From the NCBI GenBank assembly GCA_017482685.1, contig JAFUMP010000002.1:1-58345 (forward strand): 58,345 nucleotides of DNA, read 5' to 3'. A program made the translations under genes and the position numbers. The notes under the pieces are model-generated. The model was not told the DNA's origin. It searched no databases and saw only the letters and a list, made by a program, of their open reading frames with translations. Source of the DNA: a bacterium (lineage in GTDB: Bacteria; Cyanobacteriota; Vampirovibrionia; Gastranaerophilales; Gastranaerophilaceae). Shown piece after piece: positions 19,271 through 41,757 of the stretch. The first letter of the stretch is position 1; every line of letters starts with the position of its first letter.

Positions 19271-19381
19271 TTTTATTTTCTCTCACAAACTGATATGTGT
19301 CGAATTATCTCTGAGACTGCGATACAGGACTTGACTTTCTTTGAGACAAGAGTGATGAATGTGTCAGTAAGGATTTTTAAT

Positions 19382-22318: not shown

Positions 22319-22319
22319 A

Positions 22320-22727
22320 ATGAGTAAAATGAAATATTATAAACAAGCTGAAGCGCTGTTTTTGCAAGACAATTTGTCAGTAGATGAAATTTGTAAAAAC
22401 TTAAACGTTTCTCGCCGTACACTTTTTTATTGGAGAGAAAAGTACGAGTGGGATAAGAAAAAAGCTGCGAAGTTTGCGAAAAAAGAGGCTTTTTCAAAAG
22501 AGCTGCAAGGGTTTGTGGAAAAACTGATGGCAAAAATCACAACAGATATGCAAAACAAAAAGCCTGTGAATCAATCAGAGTTTTATACCCTGACAAACTT
22601 GCTAAAATACTTGCCAGACTTGGTAAAATTGGAACTCAAAGAACAAACCCAAAACACAAAACCCACCGGCCAACTCTCTGAGGATTTCATCAAACAAATA
22701 GAAAAAGAGTTCTTTGGGATGGAATAA
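22320..22727 (+). CDS. HTH protein, DUF1804/Mu-gp27-like or terminase-small-subunit-like
   Basis: This 135 aa protein begins with a clear helix-turn-helix (QAEALFLQDNLSVDEICKNL, then NVSRRTLFYWREKYEW). It continues with a helical region and a C-terminal SEDFIKQIEKEFFG. The layout matches Mu-like phage DUF1804 proteins that recognise DNA. GAGGA precedes ATG 22320, which follows the upstream stop by 1 nt. It closes the four-gene module, after which the sequence becomes much more AT-rich. Confidence 0.65.
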   Translation: MSKMKYYKQAEALFLQDNLSVDEICKNLNVSRRTLFYWREKYEWDKKKAAKFAKKEAFSKELQGFVEKLMAKITTDMQNKKPVNQSEFYTLTNLLKYLPDLVKLELKEQTQNTKPTGQLSEDFIKQIEKEFFGME

Positions 22728-22791: not shown

Positions 22792-23592
22792 ATGCCATCA
22801 ACAGCTTTTGTTCATAATGAGTACATAGATGATTCAAATCATTTAGCAATCTACGTTATCGATTTAAAAGAAATAAACGCAGATTTAAAAAACACCATAG
22901 ATTCTCATATATTACGGGTTTGCGAGGGACGAAATCCTTATGGTACAACAATTAGTGAAGCAAAGTCAAAAATAAAAAGTTTTTTAGAAAACAAATTGGA
23001 TGATAACCCACAACCCGAAACTTTAAATAAGACATATATGGGAGCAGTTGCTGAATTTTTTGTCCATATATTTTTAAATCACTTAGGATTTGAACAAGAA
23101 TGTACTTTTAAAAATTTGGAAGAACGTTCTATAAAAAAGGGGTTTGATGGTTATTATTCAGATGATAATAAAACATGGATAATGGAAAGTAAGTCTGGCT
23201 TATCAACAAGTACGGATATCAGCCATGAAAGCAAATTAGCAGAAGCATATCGTCAATTAAATCATAAAATTACAACATGCAATAGTGAGGATAATAATCC
23301 TTGGGAAAATGCTTTTCATCATGCTAAAGTTGTTGATTCAAAAGAAAGCATATTAAAACAATTAAAAGAATTATCTAATAAATTTGTATCTCGAAAAATT
23401 AATAATAACATTGAAGATTTTAACCTTATACCTTGTTCTACAATTTTTTATTTTGAGAATTGGGAAGATGAAAGAGAACATATTATTATGAAAGCAAAAA
23501 ATTTCGCAACAACGAAATTGTATTCAAATATGATAATTATATGTTTGAATAAAAAATGTATGAATTTACTTCTTGATTATCTAGAGGGATAA
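22792..23592 (+). CDS. hamA: HamA-like nuclease effector of a Hachiman-type system (DUF1837)
   Basis: This 266 aa protein contains a PD-(D/E)xK-type pattern: GAVAEFF (Glu88), KKGFDGYY (Asp119) and MESKSG (Glu132, Lys134), the layout of the DUF1837 HamA nuclease. AAGGGGG precedes the ATG. The next gene begins 1 nt after its stop and encodes the helicase partner. In known Hachiman systems the HamAB complex senses DNA and HamA degrades it, killing or protecting phage-infected cells. Assignment rests on motif layout and gene pairing, without a profile search. Confidence 0.8.
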   Translation: MPSTAFVHNEYIDDSNHLAIYVIDLKEINADLKNTIDSHILRVCEGRNPYGTTISEAKSKIKSFLENKLDDNPQPETLNKTYMGAVAEFFVHIFLNHLGFEQECTFKNLEERSIKKGFDGYYSDDNKTWIMESKSGLSTSTDISHESKLAEAYRQLNHKITTCNSEDNNPWENAFHHAKVVDSKESILKQLKELSNKFVSRKINNNIEDFNLIPCSTIFYFENWEDEREHIIMKAKNFATTKLYSNMIIICLNKKCMNLLLDYLEG

Positions 23593-23593
23593 A

Positions 23594-26531: not shown

Positions 26532-26629
26532 CTCCCAACGCAAGATTTCGTATCATTCCGACACAATTGGGGTAGGGGTAAATATATTATAATTTTATAT
26601 GCTATAATAAACTCAAAAGGAGTATTTGT

Positions 26630-27079
26630 ATGAAAAAAGTTTCATTGATTTTTTCTTTGTTTATATTGATTAGCTTACCTGCATATTCTGGAGAATTTAT
26701 GAATAAAGCATTAAATTCTTGGCTTGGATATTCTATTGATGACGTAATTGCAATATGGGGCTATCCTAAATCTGAAAAACAAATAGCAGGACGCAATCTA
26801 ATATATTGGACAAATAATCAATACCAAGTATCTGGAAATCAATACTATGTTTCTGGTGGTGAAACTTTTTGTAATAAAATTTTTGAAGTAGACAAAAAAA
26901 ATAAAATTATATCTTGGCAATATGAGGGGAATTCTTGTCCTAACTTCTATTTTACAGGTAAAGATTTAGTTAATCCTCAAAACGATGAATGGAAAATTAA
27001 TAAACAAGTAAAAAAAGAAGCTAGAGCTGAAAGAAAAAGGCTAAAACAAGAAGCTAAACTAAACAAAAAACAATTATAA
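26630..27079 (+). CDS. secreted hypothetical protein
   Basis: This 149 aa protein has an N-terminal signal peptide (MKKVSLIFSLFILISLPAYS, likely cut near residue 20). The mature part has a tryptophan-rich IDDVIAIWGYPKSEKQ segment, two cysteines (possible disulfide) and a very basic C-terminal tail of KKEARAERKR-type repeats. The GYP motif region resembles small outer-envelope assembly lipoproteins of the SmpA type only loosely. AAAAGGAG precedes the ATG and a TATAAT lies at 26603-26608. Confidence 0.6.
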   Translation: MKKVSLIFSLFILISLPAYSGEFMNKALNSWLGYSIDDVIAIWGYPKSEKQIAGRNLIYWTNNQYQVSGNQYYVSGGETFCNKIFEVDKKNKIISWQYEGNSCPNFYFTGKDLVNPQNDEWKINKQVKKEARAERKRLKQEAKLNKKQL

Positions 27080-27109
27080 TTCTTTTATTAAATTTTAGGG
27101 GTATTGCAT

Positions 27110-27508
27110 ATGAGTACTGATAACAAAATCCAACACTTACAATTCATTCAGAATGTCATTGCACGAATGTCAACGACATCGGCTGTTATTAAAGGTTTTG
27201 CCATTACAGTTACAATAGGTATATGCACTCAAATCACAACAGATATGATGGAAGATTGGGCAAAATTCACATTACTATTACCACTACTAGCACTAATGCT
27301 TCTTGATACATATTATCTATATTTAGAAAGAAATTATAGAATCCTTTATGATGAAATTAGAGAAGAAAAACTATCCGCAGATTTTTCAATGTCACTATCA
27401 AACATAACTAAAGAAAATTATTTTAGCTGTCTTAAATCAATTAGTATTTGGTTATTCTATGCTTTTGTATTTTTAATGCACATAATACTACTCAATGCGA
27501 CTTCGTAA
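27110..27508 (+). CDS. three-helix membrane protein, putative partner of the TIR-like protein
   Basis: This 132 aa protein has predicted membrane helices at about residues 24-42, 52-70 and 111-129, with charged stretches between them (YLERNYRILYDEIREEK). The N-terminal HLQFIQNVIARM segment is amphipathic. Such proteins are recurrent neighbours of DUF1863/ThsB-like genes in my recollection of bacterial genomes, but they have no settled name. The next gene's preferred start lies 10 nt after its stop. It is a plausible membrane-acting effector triggered by a TIR-made signal. Confidence 0.7.
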   Translation: MSTDNKIQHLQFIQNVIARMSTTSAVIKGFAITVTIGICTQITTDMMEDWAKFTLLLPLLALMLLDTYYLYLERNYRILYDEIREEKLSADFSMSLSNITKENYFSCLKSISIWLFYAFVFLMHIILLNATS

Positions 27509-27518
27509 AGGAATGATT

Positions 27519-28034
27519 ATGCCAAAAAGAAATGTTTTTTACAGTTTTCATTATGATAATGATGTTTTTAGAGTACAACAGATACGAAATATGGGAATTA
27601 TATCTGGCAATGAACCAGTAAAGCCAAATGATTGGGAAGAAATTAAGCGCAATGGGAATCTATCTATACAAAAATGGATAGATAATGAAATTTCAAAAAG
27701 CTCTTGCGTAGTTGTACTCATTGGTACAAACACATATTTGAGGCCGTGGGTCAAATATGAGATACTACAAGCTTGGGCACAAGGTAAAGGTTTGTTAGGA
27801 GTTTATATACACAACCTTAAAGACCCTAGAACAGAATCCACTAGTCCTCAAGGATATAATCCTTTTTCACTAATTACAGTTCCTCATAGAGGCTTTCAAA
27901 CCAATCTTTCACAGTTAGTTAGATGTTACAATCCACAACCAAACAATGCATATAATGATATATATTTCAATCTTGAGTCACTTGTCGAAGATGCAATTGC
28001 TTATAGATACAGATTATCAAGAGGACGACTTTAA
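27519..28034 (+). CDS. TIR-like (DUF1863/ThsB-like) domain protein
   Basis: This 171 aa single-domain protein shows the family pattern: FYSFHYDNDVFRVQQIRNM at the N-terminus, then SSCVVVLIGTNTYLRPWVKYEI and KGLLGVYIHNLKD. This is the fold of Thoeris ThsB, which makes NAD-derived signal molecules upon infection. ATG 27519 is chosen because AAAGGA is 6 nt upstream; an in-frame ATG at 27495 overlaps the upstream gene. No ThsA (SIR2-SLOG) gene is adjacent, so the effector here would be the membrane protein before it. Confidence 0.78.
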   Translation: MPKRNVFYSFHYDNDVFRVQQIRNMGIISGNEPVKPNDWEEIKRNGNLSIQKWIDNEISKSSCVVVLIGTNTYLRPWVKYEILQAWAQGKGLLGVYIHNLKDPRTESTSPQGYNPFSLITVPHRGFQTNLSQLVRCYNPQPNNAYNDIYFNLESLVEDAIAYRYRLSRGRL

Positions 28035-28146
28035 TCTCATATTTACCCCTAGGTTTAGATGTAAAAATGTTGTAACAATCCTTTTGTGGAAGATGCGAAT
28101 TGCTATAATTAGTGCGTTAATACTTCCAAAATAAGGATTTGCCCCA

Positions 28147-28980
28147 ATGTCAAAAACCACCCCAGAATATCATATCTTAAGCCTTTCAGGAGGAAAGGAT
28201 TCGACTGCGCTAGCTCTACTAATTAAAGAAAAGTATCCTGAAATTCACGAGCAGATTGAATATGTTTTCTTTGATACCGAGTGTGAATTAGAAGAAACTT
28301 ATGATTATTTAAATAAGTTAGAAGTTTTTCTTGAAAAACCTATAAAAAGAATAAAGCCTGAAAAGAGTTTTGATTACTTATATTCAATGTATAAATTTTT
28401 GCCATCAATACGTTTTCGTTGGTGCACAATTTATATGAAAACTGAAACTTTCAAGAAATATATGGATAGCAAAATCAAATCAGGTTGCAGTAAAATCCAT
28501 CTTTATATCGGTATTAGAGCTGATGAGCCTGAGCGTATTGAAAATTATCAGAGCAAAAACCTTGAGAGCGAAGACGGGATTTTAAATACAAGATATCTTC
28601 TTGCAGAAGAAGGTTTCTTTGAAAAAGATGTCTATAATCTCCTAGAAACAACAGGTATAGGTTATCCTAAATATTACGATTGGCGTTCTCGCTCAGGATG
28701 TTATTTCTGTTTTTACCAACGAAAAATTGAATGGATTGAACTCCTAGAACGTCATCCAGATTTGTTTGAAAAAGCTCTTCGATATGAGAAAAACGCTGGC
28801 AAAAATTTTACTTGGTGTCAGGATATGTCTTTAGAAGAACTTAAACAGCCTGAAACGGTTGCAAAAATCAAAGCAAAACATCAAGAAAAGGCCTCCAAGC
28901 ATAAAGAAGAGCGACAAACCTTATTTGATACGCTTGCTGTTAATGACGTTGATAAAACTTGTTTATTTTGCCATAAATAA
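28147..28980 (+). CDS. PAPS-reductase/ATP-pyrophosphatase family protein
   Basis: This 277 aa protein has the N-type pyrophosphatase loop SGGKDST (14-20), FFDTECELEETYDYL, RFRWCTIYMK and IGIRADEPERI, as in phosphoadenylyl-sulfate reductase and DndC-like proteins. It adds a cysteine cluster RSGCYFCFYQRK and a C-terminal CLFCHK that could bind a metal or Fe-S cluster. AAGGA precedes the ATG. The Dnd/Ssp phosphorothioation partners are absent, so sulfur chemistry on DNA is not supported. It overlaps the convergent PLD gene by 41 nt. Confidence 0.75.
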   Translation: MSKTTPEYHILSLSGGKDSTALALLIKEKYPEIHEQIEYVFFDTECELEETYDYLNKLEVFLEKPIKRIKPEKSFDYLYSMYKFLPSIRFRWCTIYMKTETFKKYMDSKIKSGCSKIHLYIGIRADEPERIENYQSKNLESEDGILNTRYLLAEEGFFEKDVYNLLETTGIGYPKYYDWRSRSGCYFCFYQRKIEWIELLERHPDLFEKALRYEKNAGKNFTWCQDMSLEELKQPETVAKIKAKHQEKASKHKEERQTLFDTLAVNDVDKTCLFCHK

Positions 28981-30805
28981 CTGAACTACAAGCATATTCA
29001 TCAAAGTCATACAAGCCATTATGATTATTATCAACTCCATCAAAGCAAGAATTTAAAGAATCAAAAGATTCTGCTTTTGGTTCAGATTTTAACCATTTTT
29101 CAGGTATTGCGTTCCATAATCTTATAAATTCATTTTTGAATTTTAAAGCGACGTCTTTGTTTTCTATTACGATAGTATTTTCGTCATTTGCTTTTTCTGC
29201 AGCTTTAGTCCAGTTCATAGAAGCGATTACGACATATTTATCGTCTGCAACTAAAGACTTCATATGCATTTTTCCGCCCCAATTTTCTGTTTTAACTTCG
29301 ATACCTTTTTCTCTTAGAAAATGATGTTTTGAGTATTTATTTGCTGATGAATTTGCATCAACAATAACTTTTACATCAACACCTCTAGCTTTAGCTTCAA
29401 TTAAACTTTCAATCACGCCACTATGAGTTAAGTAAAAAATCGGAGCATAAATATAGTTTTCAGCTTTATTGATTAAAGGAATTATTGAGCCTGTAATAGC
29501 TTTATCTTGTGGTGAGAAGTAAACCGAAACAGTCGTGTTATTATTTAGTTTTATGTTAGTTTTTGACAAATTAGTCTTTTCTTTTGTAACGTGATATTTC
29601 CCATCAAAATACATTTGATTAAATTCATTTTCATAAATTTTAGCTACTTGAGGAGCTTTAATTGCAACACTTACATTTGAGTTATAGCTTAGACAATTAT
29701 CAGTTACATTTGTTGAGCCAGTCCATAAATATTTGCTATCAACAACAAAAAATTTATTATGCATAATTGCTGAACGAATATCAAAACCCTCTGAGTTATC
29801 TTCTATATTTAGTGATTTTAGCTTTTTAAGTAACTCTTCACGCATCATTAAGTCAACTTCATAATCAGTATGAATATTTTTAATTTTAGATAATAAAATC
29901 GGAGTTTCGTGATACACGTTATAACCAAAAGCATCTCTATCAACTATACCGTATATTTTAACACCACGTTTTTCTGCATTAACTAAAGCCTCTAAAACTT
30001 CAGGTTCGCCAGAATAACCATAAATCGCAAATTTTATTGTATCTTTTGATTGATTAATCATATCAACTAATACAGCACAATTATCATTACAACAGCCGAC
30101 TTTTGGTCTTTTAAAAGCTGTTGGATCTGTAAAGTAGATTCCTATTTCACCATCTTTAAGACTTGAAAACTGCGAAGTAATATTGCAGTTAGATTTTTCT
30201 TGTGGATAAAATTGCTTAAAAAAGTTTTTATCAATAACCTCAAGACCTTTTTTTTCTTGAGCTTTTTTATCGTTAAGATTTAGTATTGTTCCTGAATATT
30301 TATTCAAGTAAGCAAGATTGAATTTCTTGGCAATATCTGCATTATTTTTAAATTTTGCTTGGTTAAAATATTGCTTTAAATTCTTATCATCAGTAGTTGC
30401 ATAACCTTCTTGTAAAACTACTTGCTCAAAATTTTTGCACTTACCCTTTTTGTAATAGGTCAGTGATGTTACATTTTTATCAGAATCATAAGCCAACCCA
30501 ACTGACTTGTTTTGAAGCTCAGCCCGTGCAAACCAACGCCCTAAATATGCAATGCCCAATATTTGATTTTCTGATAAGCCAAACGATTTTGCTTGAAGCT
30601 TGCTTATATCTGATGGCTTTCCAGCAAAAGAATTTATACCTTTAATGTGTATAAGCTCATTACTATCAGTTTTGTGATTTCCATTAAAATCTACATAAAA
30701 AGAATTAGCATCTAAAACTTTTAAGATTTTATGATAACTCTCAGCTTGTGCTGAACACACCGTCATCATTGATATAGCTAATAATGCAGTAACGAACTGT
30801 TTCAT
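28940..30805 (-). CDS. secreted phospholipase D-family protein with SNase-like N-terminus
   Basis: This 621 aa protein has a signal peptide (residues 1-21). Residues about 25-165 resemble a degenerate staphylococcal-nuclease fold (KVLDANSFYVDF, IHIKGINSFAG). Two PLD catalytic motifs follow: H349-x-K351-x4-D356 and H514-x-K516-x4-D521, both intact, with downstream GSTN and SMNW segments. The C-terminus has CFDGVDNNHNGLYDFDEYAC, a calcium-loop-like, cysteine-framed motif. It could be a secreted nuclease or phospholipase. There is no ribosome binding site; TATAAT lies 7 nt before the ATG. Confidence 0.82.
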   Translation of the reverse strand: MKQFVTALLAISMMTVCSAQAESYHKILKVLDANSFYVDFNGNHKTDSNELIHIKGINSFAGKPSDISKLQAKSFGLSENQILGIAYLGRWFARAELQNKSVGLAYDSDKNVTSLTYYKKGKCKNFEQVVLQEGYATTDDKNLKQYFNQAKFKNNADIAKKFNLAYLNKYSGTILNLNDKKAQEKKGLEVIDKNFFKQFYPQEKSNCNITSQFSSLKDGEIGIYFTDPTAFKRPKVGCCNDNCAVLVDMINQSKDTIKFAIYGYSGEPEVLEALVNAEKRGVKIYGIVDRDAFGYNVYHETPILLSKIKNIHTDYEVDLMMREELLKKLKSLNIEDNSEGFDIRSAIMHNKFFVVDSKYLWTGSTNVTDNCLSYNSNVSVAIKAPQVAKIYENEFNQMYFDGKYHVTKEKTNLSKTNIKLNNNTTVSVYFSPQDKAITGSIIPLINKAENYIYAPIFYLTHSGVIESLIEAKARGVDVKVIVDANSSANKYSKHHFLREKGIEVKTENWGGKMHMKSLVADDKYVVIASMNWTKAAEKANDENTIVIENKDVALKFKNEFIRLWNAIPEKWLKSEPKAESFDSLNSCFDGVDNNHNGLYDFDEYACSSVIYGKINKFYQRH

Positions 30806-30812
30806 AGGTTTT

Positions 30813-30818
30813 ATTATA
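30813..30818 (-). promoter_or_regulatory. -10 box of the PLD gene (leaderless)
   Basis: TATAAT on the minus strand, 7 nt, then ATG at 30805. It is divergent from and only 35 bp away from the -10 of the mmcQ-like gene. Confidence 0.5.
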
Positions 30819-30853
30819 AACTAATTTCACAAAAAGTGATAGTAGGATTATGC

Positions 30854-30859
30854 TAAAAT
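30854..30859 (+). promoter_or_regulatory. extended -10 of the mmcQ-like gene (leaderless)
   Basis: TGCTAAAAT is an extended -10 (TGnTAnAAT type). The ATG at 30866 is exactly 6 nt after it, and no ribosome binding site is present. Confidence 0.55.
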
Positions 30860-30865
30860 TAGGTT

Positions 30866-31216
30866 ATGAACAAAAAACAGCTTATTAAAAGATGCCTGAT
30901 TGATGCGGATGCGATTGAGACTTATCCTTTTGCGGATGATAAGTACAAAAACACGCCGATTTTGCGCCACGAGTCCAACAAAAAATGGTTTGGCGTAATT
31001 TTCGAACAGGACGGCAAACTTTTTATTAACCTTAAGGCTGAGCCAGAAACGATTTCGCTATTAAAAGAACAGTATCCTGAAAGCGTTTTCCCAGCTTGGC
31101 ATATGAACAAAACGCATTGGTGCAAAGTCGATGTAAACAAGATTGCGCCTGATGTTTTAGATGCAATTATCCGAAAAAGTTTTGATATAACTGCCCCAAA
31201 ACGCAAGAGAAAATAG
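30866..31216 (+). CDS. MmcQ/YjbR family protein
   Basis: This 116 aa small protein shows the family pattern: ETYPFADD near the N-terminus, RHESNKKWFGVIF, FINLKAEPE, the PAWHMNKTHWCKVDV segment and a final helix VLDAIIRKSFDI. It is a double-wing, CyaY-like fold thought to bind DNA, and is common as a stand-alone gene. Its molecular role is unclear. The start is supported by the -10 box directly upstream. Confidence 0.85.
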   Translation: MNKKQLIKRCLIDADAIETYPFADDKYKNTPILRHESNKKWFGVIFEQDGKLFINLKAEPETISLLKEQYPESVFPAWHMNKTHWCKVDVNKIAPDVLDAIIRKSFDITAPKRKRK

Positions 31217-31284
31217 GTCTTTTAAGAGGCTTGAAACCGACTTTTTTCAGCGATAAAATCGAAATATAGATTAAGGAGTTTTAT

Positions 31285-31818
31285 ATGAAAAAAGTTTTGA
31301 TATTATCAGGTAGCCCTAGAAAAGGCGGAAATTCAGATACACTTTGCGACGAGTTTATGAAAGGCGCTATTGAAGCTGGAAACGAGGTTGAAAAAATATT
31401 CGTTGCAGGGAAGAATATCGGCTATTGCAAGGCTTGCTACGCTTGCAAAGATTCAGGAGTTTGCGTAATTAAAGACGATATGGCTGAAGTTTTGCAAAAA
31501 ATGCTTGATGCTGATGTAATTGTGCTTTCAAGCCCTGTTTATTTCTATTCGATTTCTGCACAACTAAAGACTGTAATCGACCGAACTGTCGCTTGTTGGT
31601 TGGAGTTTAGGGATAAAGAATTTTATTATATTATGACTGCGGCAGAAGATGAAAAACGCACAATGGATTGCACTTTAGAGTGTTTTAGAGGACTAGCTGC
31701 GTGCCTTGAAGGCTCCAAAGAAAAGGGCGTAATCTACGCAAAAGGTGTTTACGAACGTGGCGAAATCAACGGCACAAAATTCATTCAACAAGCCTACGAA
31801 ATGGGCAAAGGCGTGTAG
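31285..31818 (+). CDS. NADPH-dependent FMN reductase / iron-sulfur flavoprotein-like
   Basis: This 177 aa flavodoxin-fold protein binds FMN through LSGSPRKGGNSD at the N-terminus. It has CKACYACKDSGVC, the compact cysteine motif of iron-sulfur flavoproteins and related reductases, then SSPVYFYSISAQLKTVIDR, the flavin-contacting loop. AAGGAG precedes the ATG. It is probably a cytosolic redox enzyme of anaerobic metabolism. Its specific substrate is unknown. Confidence 0.88.
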   Translation: MKKVLILSGSPRKGGNSDTLCDEFMKGAIEAGNEVEKIFVAGKNIGYCKACYACKDSGVCVIKDDMAEVLQKMLDADVIVLSSPVYFYSISAQLKTVIDRTVACWLEFRDKEFYYIMTAAEDEKRTMDCTLECFRGLAACLEGSKEKGVIYAKGVYERGEINGTKFIQQAYEMGKGV

Positions 31819-31824
31819 AACGAT

Positions 31825-31995
31825 ATGATTTTAAAAACTTCAAACTGGATAACTTTGATCGTGGTTGCATTAGCAATCGCAGGTTGTGTGAGGTTTTGTA
31901 ATTCAGAATTTATGCAAATTGACTCCTGCCTCGACCACGGCGGACGATGGGATTATGAAGCGAAAGTTTGTATTGATCCACCGCCAAGAGGCTAA
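31825..31995 (+). CDS. small membrane/lipoprotein-like protein (56 aa)
   Basis: This short ORF has one N-terminal hydrophobic segment (NWITLIVVALAIAGCVRF) ending in a possible lipobox cysteine, followed by SCLDHGGRWDYEAKVCI, a cysteine-framed motif seen in small bacterial envelope proteins. It starts 6 nt after the upstream stop, with no strong ribosome binding site, so it may be translated by coupling. Function unknown. Confidence 0.55.
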   Translation: MILKTSNWITLIVVALAIAGCVRFCNSEFMQIDSCLDHGGRWDYEAKVCIDPPPRG

Positions 31996-32069
31996 AATTT
32001 AATTCTATTCAAAGCTTTGAAAATATAATATAATTTAAGCAATTATTGTAGGAAGTTTGAGAAAGAAGT

Positions 32070-32837
32070 ATGAATTTTAATTTTAATAAAGAGCTTGCAG
32101 AAAATTATAAAGCTAATTCTCAAAAAATCAGAGTAATGAGTGAGGATTGGGTAGTTGAAAACGCTTATTGCGTCAAATGCGGTAATAAGCTCTCGCATTT
32201 TGAAAACAATAAACCTGTTGGCGATATGTATTGTTCTAAATGTAGAGAAGAGTTTGAAGTTAAAAGTAATAAAAATGAACTTGGTAAGAAAATTTTTGGA
32301 AGCGGCTATAATGCAATGATGGCAAAGATAGAACAAGGCACTATCCCTAATTTTTTCTATCTAAATTATTCTAAAGAAAACTTAGAAGTTAAAAATCTTT
32401 TAATTATTCCAAAACACTTTTTTACTAAAAGTATTGTTCAAGCTCGTCCACCACTTAAGCCAACGGCAAAACGTGCAGGGTGGATTGGATGTAATATCGA
32501 TGTGTCTTCAATTCCTGAAAAAGGAAAAATTTATATTGTCAAAAATGGTATAGAATGTGACAAAAAAGAAGTGCTAAGAGCTTTTAACTCTATGATTTTC
32601 GTACAAAATTATAAAATTGAGCCAAGAGGTTGGATTTTAGATATTATCAAATGTATAGAAATGCTTGATAAAAAAGAATTCACTTTAGATGATATGTACG
32701 CTTTTGAAGCTGTATTAAAACTTAAACATCCTAATAACAATAATGTTAGGGCTAAAATTCGTCAGATGCTACAGATACTTAGAAACGACAACTATTTAGA
32801 ATTTCACCAAAGAGGTATGTATCGAATTTTGGATTAG
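32070..32837 (+). CDS. dpnI: DpnI-type methyl-directed restriction endonuclease
   Basis: This 255 aa protein is similar along its whole length to DpnI, which cuts GATC only when adenine is N6-methylated. The zinc site is C34xxC37 with C55xxC58. The nuclease residues are Asp52, Glu63 and Lys65 (EFEVKS), each one position earlier than in DpnI as I recall it. The C-terminal winged helix for methyl-DNA reading includes PTAKRAGWIGCNID and FTLDDMYAFE. No DpnC/D partner is adjacent. The host chromosome must lack Dam-type GATC methylation for it to be viable. Confidence 0.93.
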   Translation: MNFNFNKELAENYKANSQKIRVMSEDWVVENAYCVKCGNKLSHFENNKPVGDMYCSKCREEFEVKSNKNELGKKIFGSGYNAMMAKIEQGTIPNFFYLNYSKENLEVKNLLIIPKHFFTKSIVQARPPLKPTAKRAGWIGCNIDVSSIPEKGKIYIVKNGIECDKKEVLRAFNSMIFVQNYKIEPRGWILDIIKCIEMLDKKEFTLDDMYAFEAVLKLKHPNNNNVRAKIRQMLQILRNDNYLEFHQRGMYRILD

Positions 32838-33013
32838 TTCAATCTTTCGACAAAGGCTTTTCTTACGTCTAAGTGAAGGTCTTCTAAATGGATTTCATCT
32901 TTTTTTAGAAGTTGTTCAATTGATTCATAATACTCTTCAAGCATTTCAATATCAGCTTGAATTTCGTCTTGTAGTTCGATTAATTTTTCTACGTCGTTTG
33001 GGGTTAGTTTCAT
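32834..33013 (-). CDS. small acidic hypothetical protein (59 aa)
   Basis: The minus-strand ORF reads MKLTPNDVEKLIELQDEIQ... and is a predicted amphipathic helix pair, strongly acidic. AGGAG lies 6 nt before the ATG. It overlaps the dpnI stop by 4 nt. Upstream lies shared promoter-like element B. Its charge would suit a DNA mimic or an antitoxin-like binder, which is speculation. Confidence 0.6.
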   Translation of the reverse strand: MKLTPNDVEKLIELQDEIQADIEMLEEYYESIEQLLKKDEIHLEDLHLDVRKAFVERLN

Positions 33014-33040
33014 ATCTGGCTCCTGTGCTTGTCTTACACT

Positions 33041-33073
33041 AACATTAATCGCTTACGTCGCAGCACAAATCAA
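33041..33073 (-). promoter_or_regulatory. shared promoter-like element B
   Basis: Minus strand TTGATT, 17 bp, GATTAATGTT, 37 nt from the G to the ATG at 33013. Confidence 0.45.
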
Positions 33074-33223
33074 CCCCAAAGACACAAAAGTTATCAATAT
33101 ATTAGTTTGAAATAAAAGATATCAAATTTTCTTGTTTAAATTGACGTATAATATGCCAAAAGTTATAATAAGTTTAATGAATTACAAATCAAATCTGACA
33201 GACTTTTTTGTAGGGAGGTAATA

Positions 33224-36200
33224 GTGTCTCAAACAATAGATTTAATTGAGCAGCATCTAAAAACACATTCCGAACGCTCAGCTGAAGACATCGCAGCTGT
33301 TTCAAAATTAAAAGCATTATTAGTATGTAATGGCAAAATAGCTACTAATTTTTCAGAAAACGATAAATGGCCAAATATAGATGGGACTTTTGAATATGTC
33401 CAAGATCCAAATATTTCAAGGTTTCCAAAACAAAACTTTTTTGTACAAATAAAAGGTACCGGTTCTTACAATGATTCAGATGGTATTATTAAATATACAT
33501 TAAAAACATTATCTTTTCCGGCCTATATACACAAACACGTTACATATGACCCAGGAATACTTTTTGTTGTTTTAAATCCTACTTCACGTGACAATACACG
33601 CATTTTTTGGAAATACATGTCAACAGAATTTTTAAATTCCATAAATTATGAGCATAAAAGTATAACAATTACATTTTCTCAAGACGAGGAAATTAAAAAT
33701 ACAAACGAGAGTGTCAATATTTTTTGCGAAAAGTTAAATGATATAACTAATAAGCATACCTTTATTAATCAAATTGACGATATCAGTTATACACCAAATG
33801 AAATTGAAAATATTATAAAAAACTGCGACAAAGAAATCTGTAAAAGTATTGAAAAAGATGAGATTTTAAATAGTACAAGAGATGATATTTCTAGAAGAAT
33901 TTTATCAAGACTTCAAGATTTATGTACAGCAACTTTAATTCTTAATGCAATGAAATATTCTCATGGAAAAGTTAATCTTCGTTTTGCTTGGGAATATTCT
34001 TTACTTAATATTGAAACAAAGTATTTAGGTTCTTTTTACAAAGCGTTGAAGTTTATAGGTAGAAGAATTCCAGAAGAGGGACAATCAGAACGTTTAATGC
34101 TAAAATACTATGATTTCTTATGGCAAATAAGAAATTTCTTAAAAGACCAGTTTAATTATAATATTTTACAGAATCTAGAAAATTTCCCCATAAATACAGA
34201 TTTACAAGATGAAACATACTATAAGTTAATCTCAGAAAGACTTAAAGATATTAAAACTGCTTCTGATACATTTAGAGATTCTCGATACTATATTCAGAAA
34301 AAAACCCCCTTCTATATTGGTACTGAAAGATATTATGAAATAACCTTACAACTAGCAGGAGTATATGCAACAAAATATAACAGAATCACGGCATATACAA
34401 AAGATAATATTTCTACGAATTATTCAATACAAATTGACTATGTAGACAAAACTATAGATTTATGGGGAATTGATACAAAAATCAAAATAATTACTAATTG
34501 GCGCGTTTCAATAGACCCTCTGTGTTTAAATAAAATAGGGAAAATATTACACATGCCGACAAAGCTAAATTCAAGACATAGAGAATACCTAAATTTAATG
34601 GATTTTCTTACAAGATCTGGTATTAATTTATTAGAATTAATTGATTTAAAAGAAATACAATTTAAAGCTATTATTGATGAAATTTATTCAACAACAAAAA
34701 CTGAAATTTACAAAGAAATATTATTAAAACTAAAAAATAATTACTCCAGTATTTCTAGAGTAAAAGGGCGTAATACAATTAGGTATTTATTAATAAATTT
34801 AAAAGAAGAAATTATAAAAGATGTATTACCGAATAAATTTACCCAAACATTTCTTAGTGATAAATTGCATATTTCTAGTAAATGTTTCCCTTTTGAAAAA
34901 AATCCCTACATATCAAATTTGGCGGGCAGAAAAACAAGTGATAATAATTTAAAACAAATACTAGATGTAGCTGGTATAGATAAAATGGATCTTGCATATC
35001 CTTATATATACATAAAGAAAAATATTAATGAAACGGGAGAAATATACTATAATCTCGATAAAATTTTAACAACAGAAAACATTGCACGCTATAATTTAAG
35101 TTTAGACGAATGGGAAAAAAGGCAAGGTTATGAAATTATTGCAGATAACGGCATTGTTTCTATTAATTCTTACGAAAAAAGTACGCTTTTTATATTAAAA
35201 AAGCTATTGGAACTATCTCATAAAACAAATAAAGGTCAAAAAGAAATAAATCAAAAATTTATAGAAGAAAATCCTATACGCTTAAATGATGATTTAAAAA
35301 AACAAGCAATAAAAAGTATCTTCATTGATTCTCAAATTTTATTAATATACGGTGCAGCAGGAACAGGAAAAACAACTTTAATTAATATTATCTCAAATTT
35401 ATTAGGCAATCGTAAGAAATTATTCCTTACCAAAACGCATACAGCACTGCAAAATCTCAAACGCAGAATTGAAAATCCCGGTACTAGATCAAGCTTTATA
35501 AGTATAGATAGTTTTACGCAAAGAATATCTGTTGAAGAGTTTGATATTATATTTATTGACGAGTGCAGTACTATCGATAATAAAAAAATGCAGGAATTCC
35601 TTAAAAAAATCAATCCAAATGCATTTATTGTAATGGCTGGGGATATCTATCAAATTGAATCAATCGATTTTGGCAATTGGTTTTTTTATGCAAAAGACAT
35701 TATTAAAAATTCAAATGCTAATATAGAATTACTAAACACATGGAGGACTGATGATGAATCGTTAATTGGCTTATGGGATGAAGTCAGGAACAGTGAAGAA
35801 TTAATAACTGAAAAACTTGTTATAAATGGTCCATACTCAGAAGAAATAGGTGCAAATATTTTAGAGCGTTCCGATGAGGATGAAGTTATATTATGCCTAA
35901 ATTATGATGGTAAGTTCGGTTTAAACAACATGAATAATTATTTCCAAAGCTCAAATACTAAAAGCGAAGCTATAACTTGGCAAGAATGGTCATATAAAGC
36001 TGGAGACCCTATTCTTTTCAATGATTGTGAAAGGTTTTCACTTTTATATAATAACTTGAAAGGACGAATTATTCATATACAGAAAGCAAAAACTCAAATC
36101 ACATTTATTATTGATATTGAAACGATACTTACTGAAAACGACTGTGAAAAAGAAGAATTTGATTTTATTGATATAGTAGATGGAAAAACTAGAATTAAAC

Positions 36201-36532
36201 TGACAATCTATGCATATGATAATAATGTAGCAGAAGAAGATTTTGAAATGATGAGACTTCGTTCTGTCATACCTTTTCAACTTGCCTATGCCATATCTAT
36301 TCATAAAGCACAGGGCTTGGAATATGATTCTGTTAAAGTAATTATACCTCGCAGTAATTCTGAAAAAATAACTCATGGTATTTTTTATACAGCAATTACA
36401 CGGGCCAAAAGAAAATTAAAAATATTCTGGAGTTCTGAAACAATGAAAGATGTAATTGAAAAATTTGGCACTAAAGATAGTAAAAAAAGGAGTTTAGAAA
36501 TAGTTAAAACCAAACTTGCTAAAGAGCAATAA
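33224..36532 (+). CDS. DUF4365 nuclease-like / SF1 helicase fusion
   Basis: This 1102 aa protein starts with GTG, with GGGAGG at 33213-33218. The N-terminal 120 residues match DUF4365: WPNIDGTFEY (Asp53) and FFVQIKGTGS (Gln75, Lys77), a PD-(D/E)xK-like pattern with Gln in place of Glu. A long alpha-helical middle (about 130-690) is unassigned. The C-terminal SF1 helicase has Walker A GAAGTGKTT (710-718), DECS at 779-782, SIHKAQGLEYDSV and motif VI TAITRAKRK (1056-1064), close to RecD/TraA-type helicases. It is a single-gene candidate defence system and the partner genes are not apparent. Confidence 0.82.
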   Translation: MSQTIDLIEQHLKTHSERSAEDIAAVSKLKALLVCNGKIATNFSENDKWPNIDGTFEYVQDPNISRFPKQNFFVQIKGTGSYNDSDGIIKYTLKTLSFPAYIHKHVTYDPGILFVVLNPTSRDNTRIFWKYMSTEFLNSINYEHKSITITFSQDEEIKNTNESVNIFCEKLNDITNKHTFINQIDDISYTPNEIENIIKNCDKEICKSIEKDEILNSTRDDISRRILSRLQDLCTATLILNAMKYSHGKVNLRFAWEYSLLNIETKYLGSFYKALKFIGRRIPEEGQSERLMLKYYDFLWQIRNFLKDQFNYNILQNLENFPINTDLQDETYYKLISERLKDIKTASDTFRDSRYYIQKKTPFYIGTERYYEITLQLAGVYATKYNRITAYTKDNISTNYSIQIDYVDKTIDLWGIDTKIKIITNWRVSIDPLCLNKIGKILHMPTKLNSRHREYLNLMDFLTRSGINLLELIDLKEIQFKAIIDEIYSTTKTEIYKEILLKLKNNYSSISRVKGRNTIRYLLINLKEEIIKDVLPNKFTQTFLSDKLHISSKCFPFEKNPYISNLAGRKTSDNNLKQILDVAGIDKMDLAYPYIYIKKNINETGEIYYNLDKILTTENIARYNLSLDEWEKRQGYEIIADNGIVSINSYEKSTLFILKKLLELSHKTNKGQKEINQKFIEENPIRLNDDLKKQAIKSIFIDSQILLIYGAAGTGKTTLINIISNLLGNRKKLFLTKTHTALQNLKRRIENPGTRSSFISIDSFTQRISVEEFDIIFIDECSTIDNKKMQEFLKKINPNAFIVMAGDIYQIESIDFGNWFFYAKDIIKNSNANIELLNTWRTDDESLIGLWDEVRNSEELITEKLVINGPYSEEIGANILERSDEDEVILCLNYDGKFGLNNMNNYFQSSNTKSEAITWQEWSYKAGDPILFNDCERFSLLYNNLKGRIIHIQKAKTQITFIIDIETILTENDCEKEEFDFIDIVDGKTRIKLTIYAYDNNVAEEDFEMMRLRSVIPFQLAYAISIHKAQGLEYDSVKVIIPRSNSEKITHGIFYTAITRAKRKLKIFWSSETMKDVIEKFGTKDSKKRSLEIVKTKLAKEQ

Positions 36533-36579
36533 TAATTTTGTACAAAACTATTTATTAAATTATGTTAAATAAAATATAA

Positions 36580-36585
36580 TATAAT
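36580..36585 (+). promoter_or_regulatory. -10 box of ogt (leaderless)
   Basis: TATAAT (an overlapping second TATAAT at 36575-36580), 6 nt, then ATG at 36592. No ribosome binding site is present. Confidence 0.5.
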
Positions 36586-36591
36586 TGTATC

Positions 36592-37065
36592 ATGTCTAAC
36601 AAACTTCATTACAAATCTACCATTGGTGTTTTAGAAATCAAACTCGAAAACGACTTTATTTTAGGACTTAAAGTCGTTGAAAGTTGTGACAACGTTTCTG
36701 AAGTAACAGGCTATTTTGCTCAAGTTGCAAAACAACTTGACGAATATTTTGCTGGGAAAAGAACTAAATTTGAGCTAAAAATTTCACCTAAGGGAACTGA
36801 ATTTCAGAAAAAAGTTTGGGCTGAATTATTGAAAATCCCTTATAGTAAAACGAAATCTTATCAAGAAATCGCTGAAGCGATTGGAAAATCTAGCGCACAA
36901 AGAGCTGTTGGCTCAGCGTGCAATAAAAATCCAATTTTACTCATCATTCCTTGCCATAGAGTTGTTTCAAAAACCGGCAAACTAACAGGTTTTGCTTGTG
37001 GTGTTGATAGAAAAGAACAACTTTTGAAATTGGAAGCTAATCGATGCTTTCAGGATAATTTATGA
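36592..37065 (+). CDS. ogt: methylated-DNA-protein-cysteine methyltransferase
   Basis: This 157 aa suicide DNA-repair protein takes the methyl group of O6-methylguanine onto Cys. The active-site motif is PCHRVV, in the segment ILLIIPCHRVVSKTG. A helix-turn-helix-like YQEIAEAIGKSSAQRAVGSA precedes it. Length is standard. It overlaps the convergent gene at 37037 by 29 nt. Confidence 0.96.
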   Translation: MSNKLHYKSTIGVLEIKLENDFILGLKVVESCDNVSEVTGYFAQVAKQLDEYFAGKRTKFELKISPKGTEFQKKVWAELLKIPYSKTKSYQEIAEAIGKSSAQRAVGSACNKNPILLIIPCHRVVSKTGKLTGFACGVDRKEQLLKLEANRCFQDNL

Positions 37066-37252
37066 AAAATGCATTAACTTGGTCTGCATCACGACGAAGA
37101 TTTTTTACAATTGGTGCGAGGTTATAAAGTTCTTCATATTCCTTTTGTGACGAGCAAAAATAATCAATCACAACCGCTGTGTTGTAAATATTTTCAGCAT
37201 ATCGCTCTAACTTTTTAAAATCTTTTCTTTTGATAACAAATCTTTCTTCCAT
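37037..37252 (-). CDS. small hypothetical protein (71 aa)
   Basis: ATG 37252 is chosen because AAAGGAGGTT lies just upstream. An extension of nine codons to 37279 would begin inside the promoter-like element. The product (MEERFVIKRKDFKKLERYA...) is helical with a conserved-looking VVIDYFCSSQKEYEELYN, charged, without membrane segments. Function unknown. Confidence 0.6.
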   Translation of the reverse strand: MEERFVIKRKDFKKLERYAENIYNTAVVIDYFCSSQKEYEELYNLAPIVKNLRRDADQVNAFFINYPESID

Positions 37253-37274
37253 ACACAACCTCCTTTTAGGTTGT

Positions 37275-37307
37275 AACATACATCAATTGGGAGTAGGTGG
37301 AAGTCAA
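37275..37307 (-). promoter_or_regulatory. shared promoter-like element C
   Basis: Minus strand TTGACT, 17 bp, GATGTATGTT, 32 nt from the G to the ATG at 37252. Confidence 0.45.
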
Positions 37308-37314
37308 GTAAATT

Positions 37315-38631
37315 TTAAAACATACCATACGTATTAAAGAACACTACTTTATGATTATCTTTAAAAGCTTCCTTAATATCTTTTGAAGGTTGATTGAAAC
37401 ATCCTACATAGATTTTTTCTAAATTAGTGTTATTATTTATTGCTTCAATAATATGCTTGTCGCTATTCATGAAAGATAATCCATGAGTAAGTAACGTTCC
37501 GCTTAATGTTTTAAACTCGTTGTAGCACTTGGTTAGATAAGGGGATTTGCTTATTCTTTCTACTTTTGCTTCTGGAGTACTTTCTAAAACAGTTAGAGGT
37601 TCAAAACCAGAATCCCATTTTTGCTTTATCTTATCAACCATCTTGTTGAATTCTTCAGCTTTTACTTTGATTGTTTCTTCATTATTTTCTATCAAATGAA
37701 ATGCTCCATGTAAGTAAAAAATAGTCTGTTTGTTTCGTTCATTCCAAGTTTCACTTAAGAAACCATCTGTAACAGAAAGCTTCATTTCTTCTTTGTTCTG
37801 TTCAACTGATTGAAGTTTTGTTTCTAATGCCGATGTTGCTATAGTATCTAATTTATTGCTTTCTTCCCCTAATAATTCACTTTCTGTTTTCTTTGCTTCA
37901 AATGCTTTATAAACTTCAGGAATAACTTTTGTCCAACCGCCTAAAATTTTCCCTTCCGATTCTGCAATGCTCTTTTGTAATAATATTTCATCTTTACAAG
38001 ATATACTTAGCTTATAGTCTTCATTCTCTTTCATATACTTTGCAAACATTTCATTTCTGACAGATTTTATACATTTATCATTAGTTGAATCCAGTTTTTT
38101 CTTCGTGTCAGTATATTCTTTTGTACCTTCTGGGATTGAGTTTAATTGTTCTTTGAGGTTTGAATAATCTACTATATCTTTATCGCCAAAGTTAATAAAT
38201 CTCATGGTCATCCAATATAACAATGGGTCATAGTTTAGTGTAAAAACTTTGTTAAAACAGTTGAAAAAATCCTTATATTTAGCAAGCTTCTCGTCTGTAA
38301 AATCTTCGATATCATTTAAAGATTTTGGCATAAGATTATATAACGTATCAATAAATTCTTTATGCAACTGGCTTTTTATCCAACGATCAATTATAACTTT
38401 TGGAACAGTTAAACTTGGATTATCATCACTAACTTTTGCTTGTGTTTGTTCTATGCACTTTTCAATATCAACAATTTCTTTCAAATCTTGTAATGAAGGC
38501 ATATGTTGCAAGATTTGATATTGATTAAATGCTTGATTACAATAACTCATTGAAAAACCATTTCCTAATAAAACACTACAATTAGTACCTAATTCTTTCT
38601 TTACATCTTCCCAAGTTAATAAATCTGTCAT
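37315..38631 (-). CDS. DUF4917 (SIR2-like fold) protein next to the RM gene
   Basis: This 438 aa protein shows the DUF4917 order: VLLGNGFSMSY near the N-terminus (Rossmann loop), VFTLNYDPLLYWMTMRF, FYLHGAFHLIE and LLTHGLSFMNSDKHIIEA. These blocks are those of SIR2-like domains that bind and may hydrolyse NAD+. A helical insertion of roughly 120 residues lies between the second and third blocks. AGGAGG precedes the ATG. It is 61 nt downstream of the RM gene on the same strand, probably one operon. It is likely a nucleotide-depleting or guarding component; this is inferred. Confidence 0.75.
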   Translation of the reverse strand: MTDLLTWEDVKKELGTNCSVLLGNGFSMSYCNQAFNQYQILQHMPSLQDLKEIVDIEKCIEQTQAKVSDDNPSLTVPKVIIDRWIKSQLHKEFIDTLYNLMPKSLNDIEDFTDEKLAKYKDFFNCFNKVFTLNYDPLLYWMTMRFINFGDKDIVDYSNLKEQLNSIPEGTKEYTDTKKKLDSTNDKCIKSVRNEMFAKYMKENEDYKLSISCKDEILLQKSIAESEGKILGGWTKVIPEVYKAFEAKKTESELLGEESNKLDTIATSALETKLQSVEQNKEEMKLSVTDGFLSETWNERNKQTIFYLHGAFHLIENNEETIKVKAEEFNKMVDKIKQKWDSGFEPLTVLESTPEAKVERISKSPYLTKCYNEFKTLSGTLLTHGLSFMNSDKHIIEAINNNTNLEKIYVGCFNQPSKDIKEAFKDNHKVVFFNTYGMF

Positions 38632-38692
38632 AGTAAATTCCTCCTAAACCTATTATTTAGGAAGAGTTGTTTTTATTCAAGTTCATGTAAAT

Positions 38693-41128
38693 TTATTTAA
38701 TATACTCTAGGTATTCGAGCAATTTTTTCTGCTCAAGATATTTCATGTAGTCTTCCATGTATTTATAGTCTGGTTCACCTTTTGAGTTTACTGGAAGCAT
38801 TATTTTTTGGCGCAACATTCTTGATTCACAAAATTTATATCCATACATATATTTACTCTTTTGCTTAAGGATTACTGATTTCATAAAAAGTAGAACATAC
38901 TTGTTATCAGTATAATTTTTAAGATGGAAACGTTTCACTGAATCTGTAAACAAACAAGAATATGGATGATAAAAGCTTATTGCAACACCATTTCCGTCAT
39001 AATTAACTCCTAGAACATTTTTATCTAACGAAGAATTTGTATTATTTACATAATTTGTTATTCCATTTCCATTATCTGTTGCACCGATAAAAGGGGTTAC
39101 ACCCTCAACCATTTTTGATGTCGTTAATCGTTTCCCAGATTTTATTATAAATATATCAGAAATTTCAAAAGACTCCCATTTTTTTAGTAAATCCAACTTA
39201 TAAACATTACTTCTTGATATTTTTTGTTTTGCATCTTTAAAGAGGTATTTTTTACCAGTAATAACTTTTTCAAATTCAAATGTTAAGTAATCTGTTATTG
39301 CTTGTTCAAAGTAATTTTCATCAGGAATTTCATCATTAAAATAATAAAAAGAGTGAAGCCATTCATCATCTGGTTTAATTGTAGATTTAACTATAAAATC
39401 AATTGGGGCATTAATTCTATCAAACCACACGTCAAGTAGATGTTGTTTCTTGTCTTTAGCATATTCTGTCTCTATCAATCCAACGTGCGGAGCGACTTTG
39501 AAACCATCGTTTTTGAAATTTATAAATTTACACTCTTTGTTAACGGGATGAGGTTTATGTGCAGTAAAAATTGCAATACAAGTATGCACACCTACTCCAA
39601 AAAATGTATTTTCACTTAAAGTTATAACGCCTTCTAAGGTATGATGTTTTAATATGCTTTCTTTATAGTTTTGTTCATCTTTTGTCTTACCAGTTAAAGA
39701 AGATTGAGGAATAATTACAATAGCTTTACCATCTTCTGCCAATGAATCTAGTAAGTGTTCAACAAAACTTATTTCATATAGTGATGGGTTAGCTTTTGAA
39801 CCTTGACTATATGGTGGATTCATCATGCCGACAGTTGCACCTTTTAATTGTAATTCTGAATCTTTACATCTTAAGAAATCTTCATCTACAAGGTTACTTT
39901 TACCATCACCACGAATAATCATGTTTGATGTAGCAATAGTAAACATATAAGGTTGAAGTTCGATACCATGAAGTTGGTTTTTACGAATATTTTCCCTTTG
40001 GTTGTCATCCTTAGCTTTCTTCAACATATTATGCATTGCTGCAATAAGGAATCCAGCTGTACCACAACAAGGGTCAAGCACGACATCATCAGGTTTTAAA
40101 TCTACCAAATCACAAAACAGTTGAGTTATATGTTTTGGAGTAAGAATAATACCTAACGTTTGTCCATCACCACCAGAATAACTCATAAATTCACCGTAAA
40201 ATCTGCCTAAATAATCTTCTGCGGTTTTTGTGTATTTTATAGTTTTGTAGATATTATCATAAATTTGTTCTGCATAGTATTTAAGAGGTGTTTTACCTAA
40301 TGTTTTGTTCTTTTCATTAAGGATTTTAGTATCTCTTATGACAGCAAATTGTGTTAATAGCTTATCTTTCTTGACCGTCGGTGATACTTTCGAGCGTTGA
40401 AGATTTTTATCAATAGCTGCATAAATCTTACTACCATCTGTATCTATGTCATCACCGTTTAATTGCTCAAGATTAAAAGAGCCTTTCTCAATTTCCCTAA
40501 GAGCAAGTAATATACCAGATACAACAAGAGGTTTTTGAGTATCTTGCAAGTTTCCATAATTGCGTAAATCTTCATGTAGATTCTTTGCAAACTTAAGAAT
40601 TTCAGTAGTTTCTTTTTGTAAATCGGTATTTTCACCTAAAACTTCTCTAGTGTAGTATTCATCTATATTTTCTTCATTGAAGATATAGAAAGATTCAACA
40701 TCAGGCATTACTTTGCAATATTCACGTTCATTTATAAAGAGAGGTGTTATTTTGTGATGTTTTTCATTGCCAGATACACCAAAGGCAATAATCTTTTTGT
40801 TGTGAGTATTATTTATAAGGTGCTTACCATAGAAATAAGCCCCATTGACTGCATAATCTGTTACAGACTTTGTTTCAGTACATATTAACTCTTTTTCGTT
40901 ATACTTTACATGTTTTGATAAATCAGATTTATCTTCTATAACAAGTAAAAAATCTTTGACAGCACCAACATATTCTGGATAACCAACATTGCCAGTACCT
41001 TTTTTAGAAGCAGTTTTTAGTGCTTCATCAACTTCTTTAATTGAACATCCTTGTGGGTCAAGACAAATACCAGCTTCTTTAAGTAGGTCATAAACCCAAA
41101 GGTCAGTTTTAACTTCTCTCTTTGCCAT
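38693..41128 (-). CDS. single-chain restriction-modification protein (nuclease, N6-adenine methylase, specificity domain)
   Basis: This 811 aa protein has a nuclease-like N-terminus (Pro51-Glu52 in GYPEY, Glu65-Asp66-Lys67 in LLVIEDK). A gamma-class DNA methylase follows with DPCCGTAGF (352-360) and NPPY (437-440). From about 660 there is a target-recognition domain resembling type I HsdS (KWESFEISDIFIIKSGK, LTTSKMVEG). This is the type IIG/IIB-like R-M-S fusion design. AGAGGTG precedes the ATG. No separate HsdR or HsdS is adjacent. Confidence 0.85.
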   Translation of the reverse strand: MAKREVKTDLWVYDLLKEAGICLDPQGCSIKEVDEALKTASKKGTGNVGYPEYVGAVKDFLLVIEDKSDLSKHVKYNEKELICTETKSVTDYAVNGAYFYGKHLINNTHNKKIIAFGVSGNEKHHKITPLFINEREYCKVMPDVESFYIFNEENIDEYYTREVLGENTDLQKETTEILKFAKNLHEDLRNYGNLQDTQKPLVVSGILLALREIEKGSFNLEQLNGDDIDTDGSKIYAAIDKNLQRSKVSPTVKKDKLLTQFAVIRDTKILNEKNKTLGKTPLKYYAEQIYDNIYKTIKYTKTAEDYLGRFYGEFMSYSGGDGQTLGIILTPKHITQLFCDLVDLKPDDVVLDPCCGTAGFLIAAMHNMLKKAKDDNQRENIRKNQLHGIELQPYMFTIATSNMIIRGDGKSNLVDEDFLRCKDSELQLKGATVGMMNPPYSQGSKANPSLYEISFVEHLLDSLAEDGKAIVIIPQSSLTGKTKDEQNYKESILKHHTLEGVITLSENTFFGVGVHTCIAIFTAHKPHPVNKECKFINFKNDGFKVAPHVGLIETEYAKDKKQHLLDVWFDRINAPIDFIVKSTIKPDDEWLHSFYYFNDEIPDENYFEQAITDYLTFEFEKVITGKKYLFKDAKQKISRSNVYKLDLLKKWESFEISDIFIIKSGKRLTTSKMVEGVTPFIGATDNGNGITNYVNNTNSSLDKNVLGVNYDGNGVAISFYHPYSCLFTDSVKRFHLKNYTDNKYVLLFMKSVILKQKSKYMYGYKFCESRMLRQKIMLPVNSKGEPDYKYMEDYMKYLEQKKLLEYLEYIK

Positions 41129-41217
41129 ACTACACCTCTGCTACAAGGATTATATAAAAATTTTTATATAATCAAATCCTCTAAACAGTTTAATAATACT
41201 ACTTTTGAAGTTGATTC

Positions 41218-41757
41218 TTACAAATAAAAATCCCTATACACTGCATCAATATCTTCCTGTTCGATGCCGATGTAGCGGAGGGTGATTTGGGGTGAAGAAT
41301 GATTAAAAATCTTCTGTAGCAGCACGACATCGTCGTATTTTTGGTAGCAATGGTATCCAAATGTTTTCCTCAATGTATGTGTGCCTATCCGTCTTGTTAT
41401 TCCAACCGCCCGTGCGGCTTTATTTAAAATCTTATACGCTCTGCTCCGCTCCATTCGTCTTCCCTTTTGTGTATAAAACAACGGTTGATCCTCCGGCATT
41501 CCTTTAGTAAATTCTTCAATCTCCTTTTTCAACCTATCATTAATTGGAAATACTTTCCGTTTGCCAGTTTTCAGTTCTCTAATTTCAATATACTCTTTGC
41601 CCCTAACATCCCCGACATTAAGTGCAAGTATATCAGAAATTCTTAGTCCGCTATTTATCCCAAAGCTAAAGAGCAAAGCGTTCCTCGGCTTTTTTGCCAA
41701 GAATTCTTTCATTTTTCTAATATCGTCAAGGCTTTTTATTGGGTCAACAGCATTCAT
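41218..41757 (-). CDS. short tyrosine recombinase (catalytic domain only)
   Basis: At 179 aa, this is only the catalytic half of a tyrosine recombinase. The first Arg lies in NSGLRISDI, HTLRKTFGYH carries HxxR, and FNHSSPQITLRYIG carries the second His and the nucleophile Tyr. All are intact. The usual N-terminal core-binding domain is missing. AAAGG precedes the ATG. Element D is upstream. It may be a recombinase acting alone (short forms exist) or a remnant of the island integrase. Confidence 0.82.
   Translation of the reverse strand: MNAVDPIKSLDDIRKMKEFLAKKPRNALLFSFGINSGLRISDILALNVGDVRGKEYIEIRELKTGKRKVFPINDRLKKEIEEFTKGMPEDQPLFYTQKGRRMERSRAYKILNKAARAVGITRRIGTHTLRKTFGYHCYQKYDDVVLLQKIFNHSSPQITLRYIGIEQEDIDAVYRDFYL

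Follow-up and report, generated by a model that had tools for sequence, protein, structure and literature searches.

The gene and its surroundings

The window, i.e. the whole stretch of 58,345 nucleotides that was analysed, represents all of contig C26 and belongs to a gut-bacterial source genome of 1.5 Mb (74% complete). It carries a reading frame of 1102 codons without interruption, whose GTG start is preceded by AGGGAGG as a good ribosome-binding site (Table 1). An earlier interpretation made from the letters alone (hereafter the sequence-only reading) had proposed a single-gene fusion of DUF4365 and an SF1 helicase, which is confirmed by the one intact frame and by the domain profiles. Since four homologues share all of the architecture of DUF4365 domain, middle region and helicase, and since the dN/dS between two of them is low, this arrangement is not a product of chance.

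Table 1. Coordinates of the fusion gene, its parts and associated features (window positions unless a locus is named)
Feature	Position	Strand	Details
Whole gene, DUF4365-PDC-S53 fusion	33224..36532	+	1102 aa; GTG start; 4 full-length homologues, 55-60% identity
DUF4365 (DREN/RecB-like PD-(D/E)XK) domain, residues ~15-180	33266..33763	+	predicted active site D53, Q75, K77; E57 invariant too
PDC-S53 core, residues 193-1098	33800..36517	+	PADLOC PDLC05035, 958 bits, model positions 3-894 of 900
Conserved middle without known fold, residues ~190-545	33791..34858	+	no Pfam family at E<=1; AlphaFold2 secondary structure
SF1B helicase, RecD2/RecD/Dda/Pif1 type, residues ~546-1102	34859..36529	+	profiles, motifs, fold matches
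DpnI-like methyl-directed restriction enzyme, co-inserted neighbour	32070..32837	+	PF06044 245 bits; mREase_II 326 bits
Insertion interval, DpnI and fusion gene, ~4.78 kb	31820..36600	.	missing from closest relative G146
Gene preceding the core in the phage clade	L013 4137-4973; L014 5137-5973; L021 3176-4120; L022 3092-4039; L026 3096-3935

The direct neighbours of the fusion gene are the genes for DpnI and Ogt. In the closest relative, G146, which shows 85-95% nucleotide identity to the window across the main shared stretches, the flanking genes for an FMN reductase and Ogt lie only 38 bp apart, so that the DpnI gene and the fusion gene together constitute an insert of about 4.8 kb. In the alignment of the flanks, L069 917-1464 corresponds to window 31273-31820 (92%) and L069 1510-2219 to window 36601-37310 (85%). 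No homologue of the fusion protein was found elsewhere in G146 (99% complete).

The genes for FMN reductase and Ogt represent fixed points between three variable intervals (26571-31273, 31820-36600 and 37310-41218). In the window, the first of these contains PDC-M50A, a ThsB-type TIR/PDC-M50B, SspD and a PLD-family protein, and the third contains PDC-S21 and a type IIG restriction-methylase. At the swapped neighbouring intervals, G146 has PDC-M33ABC together with a C5-methylase and an HNH nuclease. Since all three intervals differ from G146, each with defence genes, the region is a defence hot spot.

The N-terminal DUF4365 domain

When the first 183 residues were searched alone, they matched Pfam PF14280 (DUF4365) with an E-value of 5.1e-6 and 27.0 bits, the curated cut-off being 24.3 bits; the family was absent among the best 25 of the 31 families from the whole-protein Pfam scan. 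The motif residues of the window protein read as D53 and Q75-I76-K77, and D53, E57, Q75 and K77 are unchanged in 8/8 aligned DUF4365 proteins, comprising five fused proteins and three others from related genomes. These residues had been named correctly in the sequence-only reading. However, it took the glutamine as an oddity that pointed to an altered nuclease or a binder, and this does not hold, as D-QxK is the catalytic set of DUF4365/DREN nucleases (PMC12205087, PMC10810196). In NbaSPARDA, the active site comprises D41, Q60 and K62, with Mg bound by D41 and Q60; cleavage is abolished by D41A and Q60A and impaired by K62A (PMC12205087). For a second DUF4365 system, TmuRE Q62A/K64A served as the inactive mutant control (PMC10810196). 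Since Q60A abolishes SPARDA cleavage and Q75 is invariant in all eight proteins, a nuclease that is dead or altered on account of its glutamine was rejected. Judged by these residues, the DUF4365 domain of the fusion should be an active DNase. By analogy to SPARDA, whose DREN domain is monomeric and inactive when isolated and has to form tetramers (PMC12205087), this DNase is probably gated.

When the fused N-termini and other DUF4365 proteins were combined in one profile, it matched PDB entry 9qbq ('DUF4365 domain-containing protein', E 4e-4) with the D and QxK aligned. Since three ordinary DUF4365 proteins are part of this profile, the match results partly from its construction; it supports the alignment of the motifs and is no proof of homology by itself. 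A PDB sequence search with the N-terminus alone gave no match, and the five-row profile of the fused proteins gave none that was credible. The structure prediction that had been suggested for this domain was run with AlphaFold2 from three sequences and resulted in a pLDDT of 35. It thus gave no confirmation, and the assignment of the nuclease fold rests on the sequence profiles; the original proposal stands as regards motifs and profile, whereas the fold was not confirmed by prediction. PADLOC additionally reported a PDC-M02A match on the N-terminus (E 0.003), which was set aside; PDC-M02B had no match anywhere in the window's genome (74% complete).

The PDC-S53 core, the middle region and the helicase

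Behind the nuclease domain, the window protein matches the whole length of the PADLOC model PDC-S53, a widespread candidate family (Table 1). Since the core is a catalogued candidate with an existing name, the helicase half is not new. The profile search for the architecture therefore gave a divided answer: the core is already assigned, whereas the fusion lies outside the 900-position model. Neither this model nor the core-only relatives carry the N-terminal DUF4365 domain, and because of its 190 extra N-terminal residues the window protein is a variant of PDC-S53 and not a plain member. From the sequences, what appears to be new is the rare DUF4365-PDC-S53 architecture with its five intact members. 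A search of the open-access literature, with most preprints and subscription papers outside its coverage, yielded no description of a DUF4365-RecD-like fusion and no paper naming PDC-S53.

The part between nuclease and helicase had been described as an uncharacterised helical middle of about 560 residues. A conserved middle is indeed present, but both its size and its all-helical nature have to be corrected. Since the RecD2-like match starts near residues 520-555, about 350 rather than 560 residues lack a recognised fold. In the AlphaFold2 model, helices (about 191-341 and 432-546) enclose a strand-rich block at 354-428. The middle is conserved in the core-only relatives as well, e.g. SERLMLKYY at 288-296, and residues 190-545 thus belong to the family core and do not represent a private insertion. 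No fold was assigned to these residues; as the structure searches were dominated by the helicase, the missing match says little. The model of the full protein reached a mean pLDDT of 64; it is of good quality across much of 190-535, of modest quality in the helicase and useless for 1-187.

For the C-terminus, the RecD/TraA-like helicase proposed before was recovered by AAA_30, UvrD_C_2 and the RecD/RecD2/TraA models. Its motifs are intact and conserved, with Walker A GAAGTGKT (G715, K716), DE at 779-780 and GDxxQ at 806-810; SIHKAQGLEY (1025-1034) and TAITRAK (1056-1062) are likewise intact. The Walker A lysine is accordingly K716 and not residue 717 as had been given. Foldseek matched the helicase to RecD and RecD2 with E-values of 1e-14 to 1e-13, and VIA-align gave Z 15 to RecD2 and Z 12 to Dda and Pif1, with a range of Z 12-15 for the RecD2/RecD/TraI/Dda fold. 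From its grouping with RecD2, Dda and Pif1, a 5'-3' polarity is expected.

Distribution of the fusion and of core-only relatives

Homologues of the window protein are present in 7/383 genomes of the host's order. Intact fusions were detected at five loci, namely in the window, G202 (same family as the window's genome; same contig as L002), G138, G383 and L003. The last is one contig from a metagenome-assembled genome labelled Bacilli, which may be mis-binned; the fusions occur mostly within the host's Gastranaerophilales family. When 386 genomes of the phylum were searched with a profile built from the N-terminal domain of the fusions, nothing beyond the known fusions was detected except a broken piece in G293. 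This remnant (contig 110, 2881-3392; L080, L081) has a stop codon, and no core was found behind it.

In a maximum-likelihood tree, a long branch with a support of 100/100 sets the five fusions apart as one clade, which makes a single fusion event the simplest reading. Between G138 and G383, dN/dS amounts to about 0.10 in the nuclease domain, and the middle and the helicase give values of about 0.13 and 0.08, respectively. With values of about 0.1, all parts are under selective maintenance in these two genomes.

The fused gene of G138 directly follows four homologues of the Mu-like transposition genes that lie at window 19265-22727, and it adjoins a type I restriction gene; it is apparently a cargo of this gene set. 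In G383, the fused gene is close to two or three homologues of the same transposition genes. The window differs in this respect, as the transposition genes are followed there by a helicase that matches Hachiman HamB.

The core-only relatives comprise 900-935 aa, lack the N-terminal domain, start where the PDC-S53 match starts and share about 32-38% identity with the window protein. They were found on plasmids of Sporosarcina, Phocaeicola, Lactiplantibacillus and Rhodococcus, in phages of Erysipelothrix and Terrisporobacter, and also in the phylum and family to which the host belongs. The phage-borne relatives adjoin restriction/methylase genes, and some phage relatives are annotated as Dda-like or RecD-like helicases. 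In IMG/VR, an alignment query detected 9 core relatives, and the window protein as lone query gave no match. Since the plasmid, phage and bacterial relatives of about 900 aa lack the N-terminal domain, the nuclease is seen as an add-on to a free-standing core. A Rosetta-stone pair, i.e. a stand-alone DUF4365 gene beside the core, was rejected for the members examined, as none of their upstream genes matched DUF4365.

PDC-S53 behaves as a single gene, with unrelated neighbours around the relatives examined and a conserved upstream gene in one phage clade only. There, a gene of 278-315 aa (phrog_6948; weak or absent in L026) precedes the core, possibly as a regulator or second component.

Proposed function and alternative explanations

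With a probability of roughly 0.6, the fusion is a one-gene effector against mobile genetic elements, in which a PDC-S53-type SF1B helicase/translocase has gained a DUF4365 (DREN-type) nuclease. The one-gene nuclease-helicase defence system put forward in the sequence-only reading is thereby supported as a candidate by the PDC-S53 core and by the polymorphic insertion together with DpnI in a hot spot, whereas the altered nuclease is abandoned. A defence role is the most likely one for the protein, and for its nuclease activity and choice of target we infer the following course. The helicase, together with the family-specific middle, would recognise the DNA of an invading phage or plasmid, or its replication intermediates, and load onto it. 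The DUF4365 nuclease would stay silent until the protein assembles on or moves along the foreign DNA, where ATP-driven movement, or several copies assembling on the invader DNA, could bring the DUF4365 domains together. Such gating by oligomerisation is suggested by the SPARDA DREN domain. The nuclease would then cut DNA with little sequence preference, and either the invader would be destroyed or the infected cell stopped.

The main rival arises from the fact that most members lack the nuclease. The PDC-S53 core alone could be the defence module, for example by remodelling or blocking phage replication forks, with DUF4365 as an optional booster or a module for DNA binding or oligomerisation. 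This fits the relatives of about 900 aa without an adjacent DUF4365 gene (in those examined) in plasmids, phages and the same host family, as well as the fusions being one clade on a long branch. Against it, 5/5 fused proteins keep the active-site residues of the nuclease unchanged, and purifying selection acts on this domain as it does on the other parts, so this explanation is considered unlikely. Since most of the family works without the nuclease, whatever its role, the domain may nonetheless be accessory or regulatory.

The RecD2/RecD fold and the Dda-like or RecD-like annotation of phage relatives would also suit a helicase-nuclease for DNA repair or replication of mobile elements, RecD2- or Dna2-like and with no dedicated defence role; carriage of core relatives by phages is equally compatible with a role in replication or superinfection. 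However, the gene is missing from the closest relative, occurs in few genomes of the order, was inserted with DpnI amid other defence genes and has a core that others assigned as a PADLOC candidate, which makes a pure repair or replication function quite improbable. For an inactive or decaying gene with DUF4365 as a dead DNA binder, the glutamine in place of glutamate and the mere broken piece in G293 could be cited. Given the catalytic role of this glutamine in DUF4365/DREN (PMC12205087, PMC10810196), the intact reading frame and the dN/dS of about 0.1 between relatives, we regard decay as very improbable indeed.

A wider extension of the effector reading is offered only tentatively and is itself rather doubtful: PDC-S53 could serve as a modular platform that acts as sensor and translocase, and one lineage of the Gastranaerophilales could have added a collateral nuclease of the SPARDA type to it. 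The resulting system would consist of a single protein and work without a guide, its otherwise silent DREN domain being switched on by DNA translocation or by assembly on the DNA of the invader. If the fusion protects, a DREN nuclease would be gated by a helicase instead of an RNA-guided Argonaute, and the core-only family would be suggested to act on the same DNA substrate. With three nuclease positions, one helicase position and a removable N-terminus, this natural fusion with known nuclease residues would make the two predicted activities separable.

Comparison with known systems

Compared to the DREN/DUF4365-APAZ protein of SPARDA, the window protein shows the same N-terminal DUF4365 domain with a D and Q-x-K active site and is likewise a predicted nonspecific DNase. 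The domain is, however, fused to an SF1B helicase core and not to APAZ: the residues that follow DUF4365 are part of the PDC-S53 core, and no Piwi match was found in the genome (G000, 74% complete). RecD2, RecD, T4 Dda and Pif1 share fold and motifs with the C-terminal 550 residues (Z 12-15), to which the window protein adds the 350-residue middle without known fold and the nuclease domain.

Hna and Gabija follow a similar logic of nuclease and helicase/ATPase in anti-phage defence, but neither has the DUF4365-PDC-S53 domain combination. Gabija requires a separate OLD-TOPRIM nuclease, GajA. At the locus, the helicase gives weak partial GajB matches only and the neighbours are DpnI and Ogt, so that a GajA + GajB pair is not present. 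Hna is described as a 3'-5' ssDNA exonuclease that forms an autoinhibited dimer (PMC13381803).

Further observations on neighbouring genes

At window 18775-22727, a tRNA-Asp is followed by MuA/MuB-like genes (phrog_310, phrog_296), a protein with a SAM-like integrase domain and an HTH protein. Members of this Mu-like transposase family occur in 83/146 genomes of the host family. Upstream of the transposase, near-identical 23-bp repeats TATAGGGAAACAGGNCATTTGAT lie at 18951-18973 and 19046-19068, which are possibly end repeats bound by the transposase; the transposon ends were looked for at this locus and were not delimited.

Of the two genes that form a unit at 22792-26056, the second encodes a DEAD helicase of 820 aa with a match to HamB (146 bits). 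The product of the first has 266 aa and showed no convincing HamA match and a weak SAVED match only. A gene for an SspD-like PAPS-reductase protein (303 bits) is located at 28147-28980, and no other Ssp protein was matched among the neighbouring genes scanned. At 27104-28034, an overlapping gene pair matches the PADLOC candidate PDC-M50A/B, the B gene also being a ThsB-type TIR.
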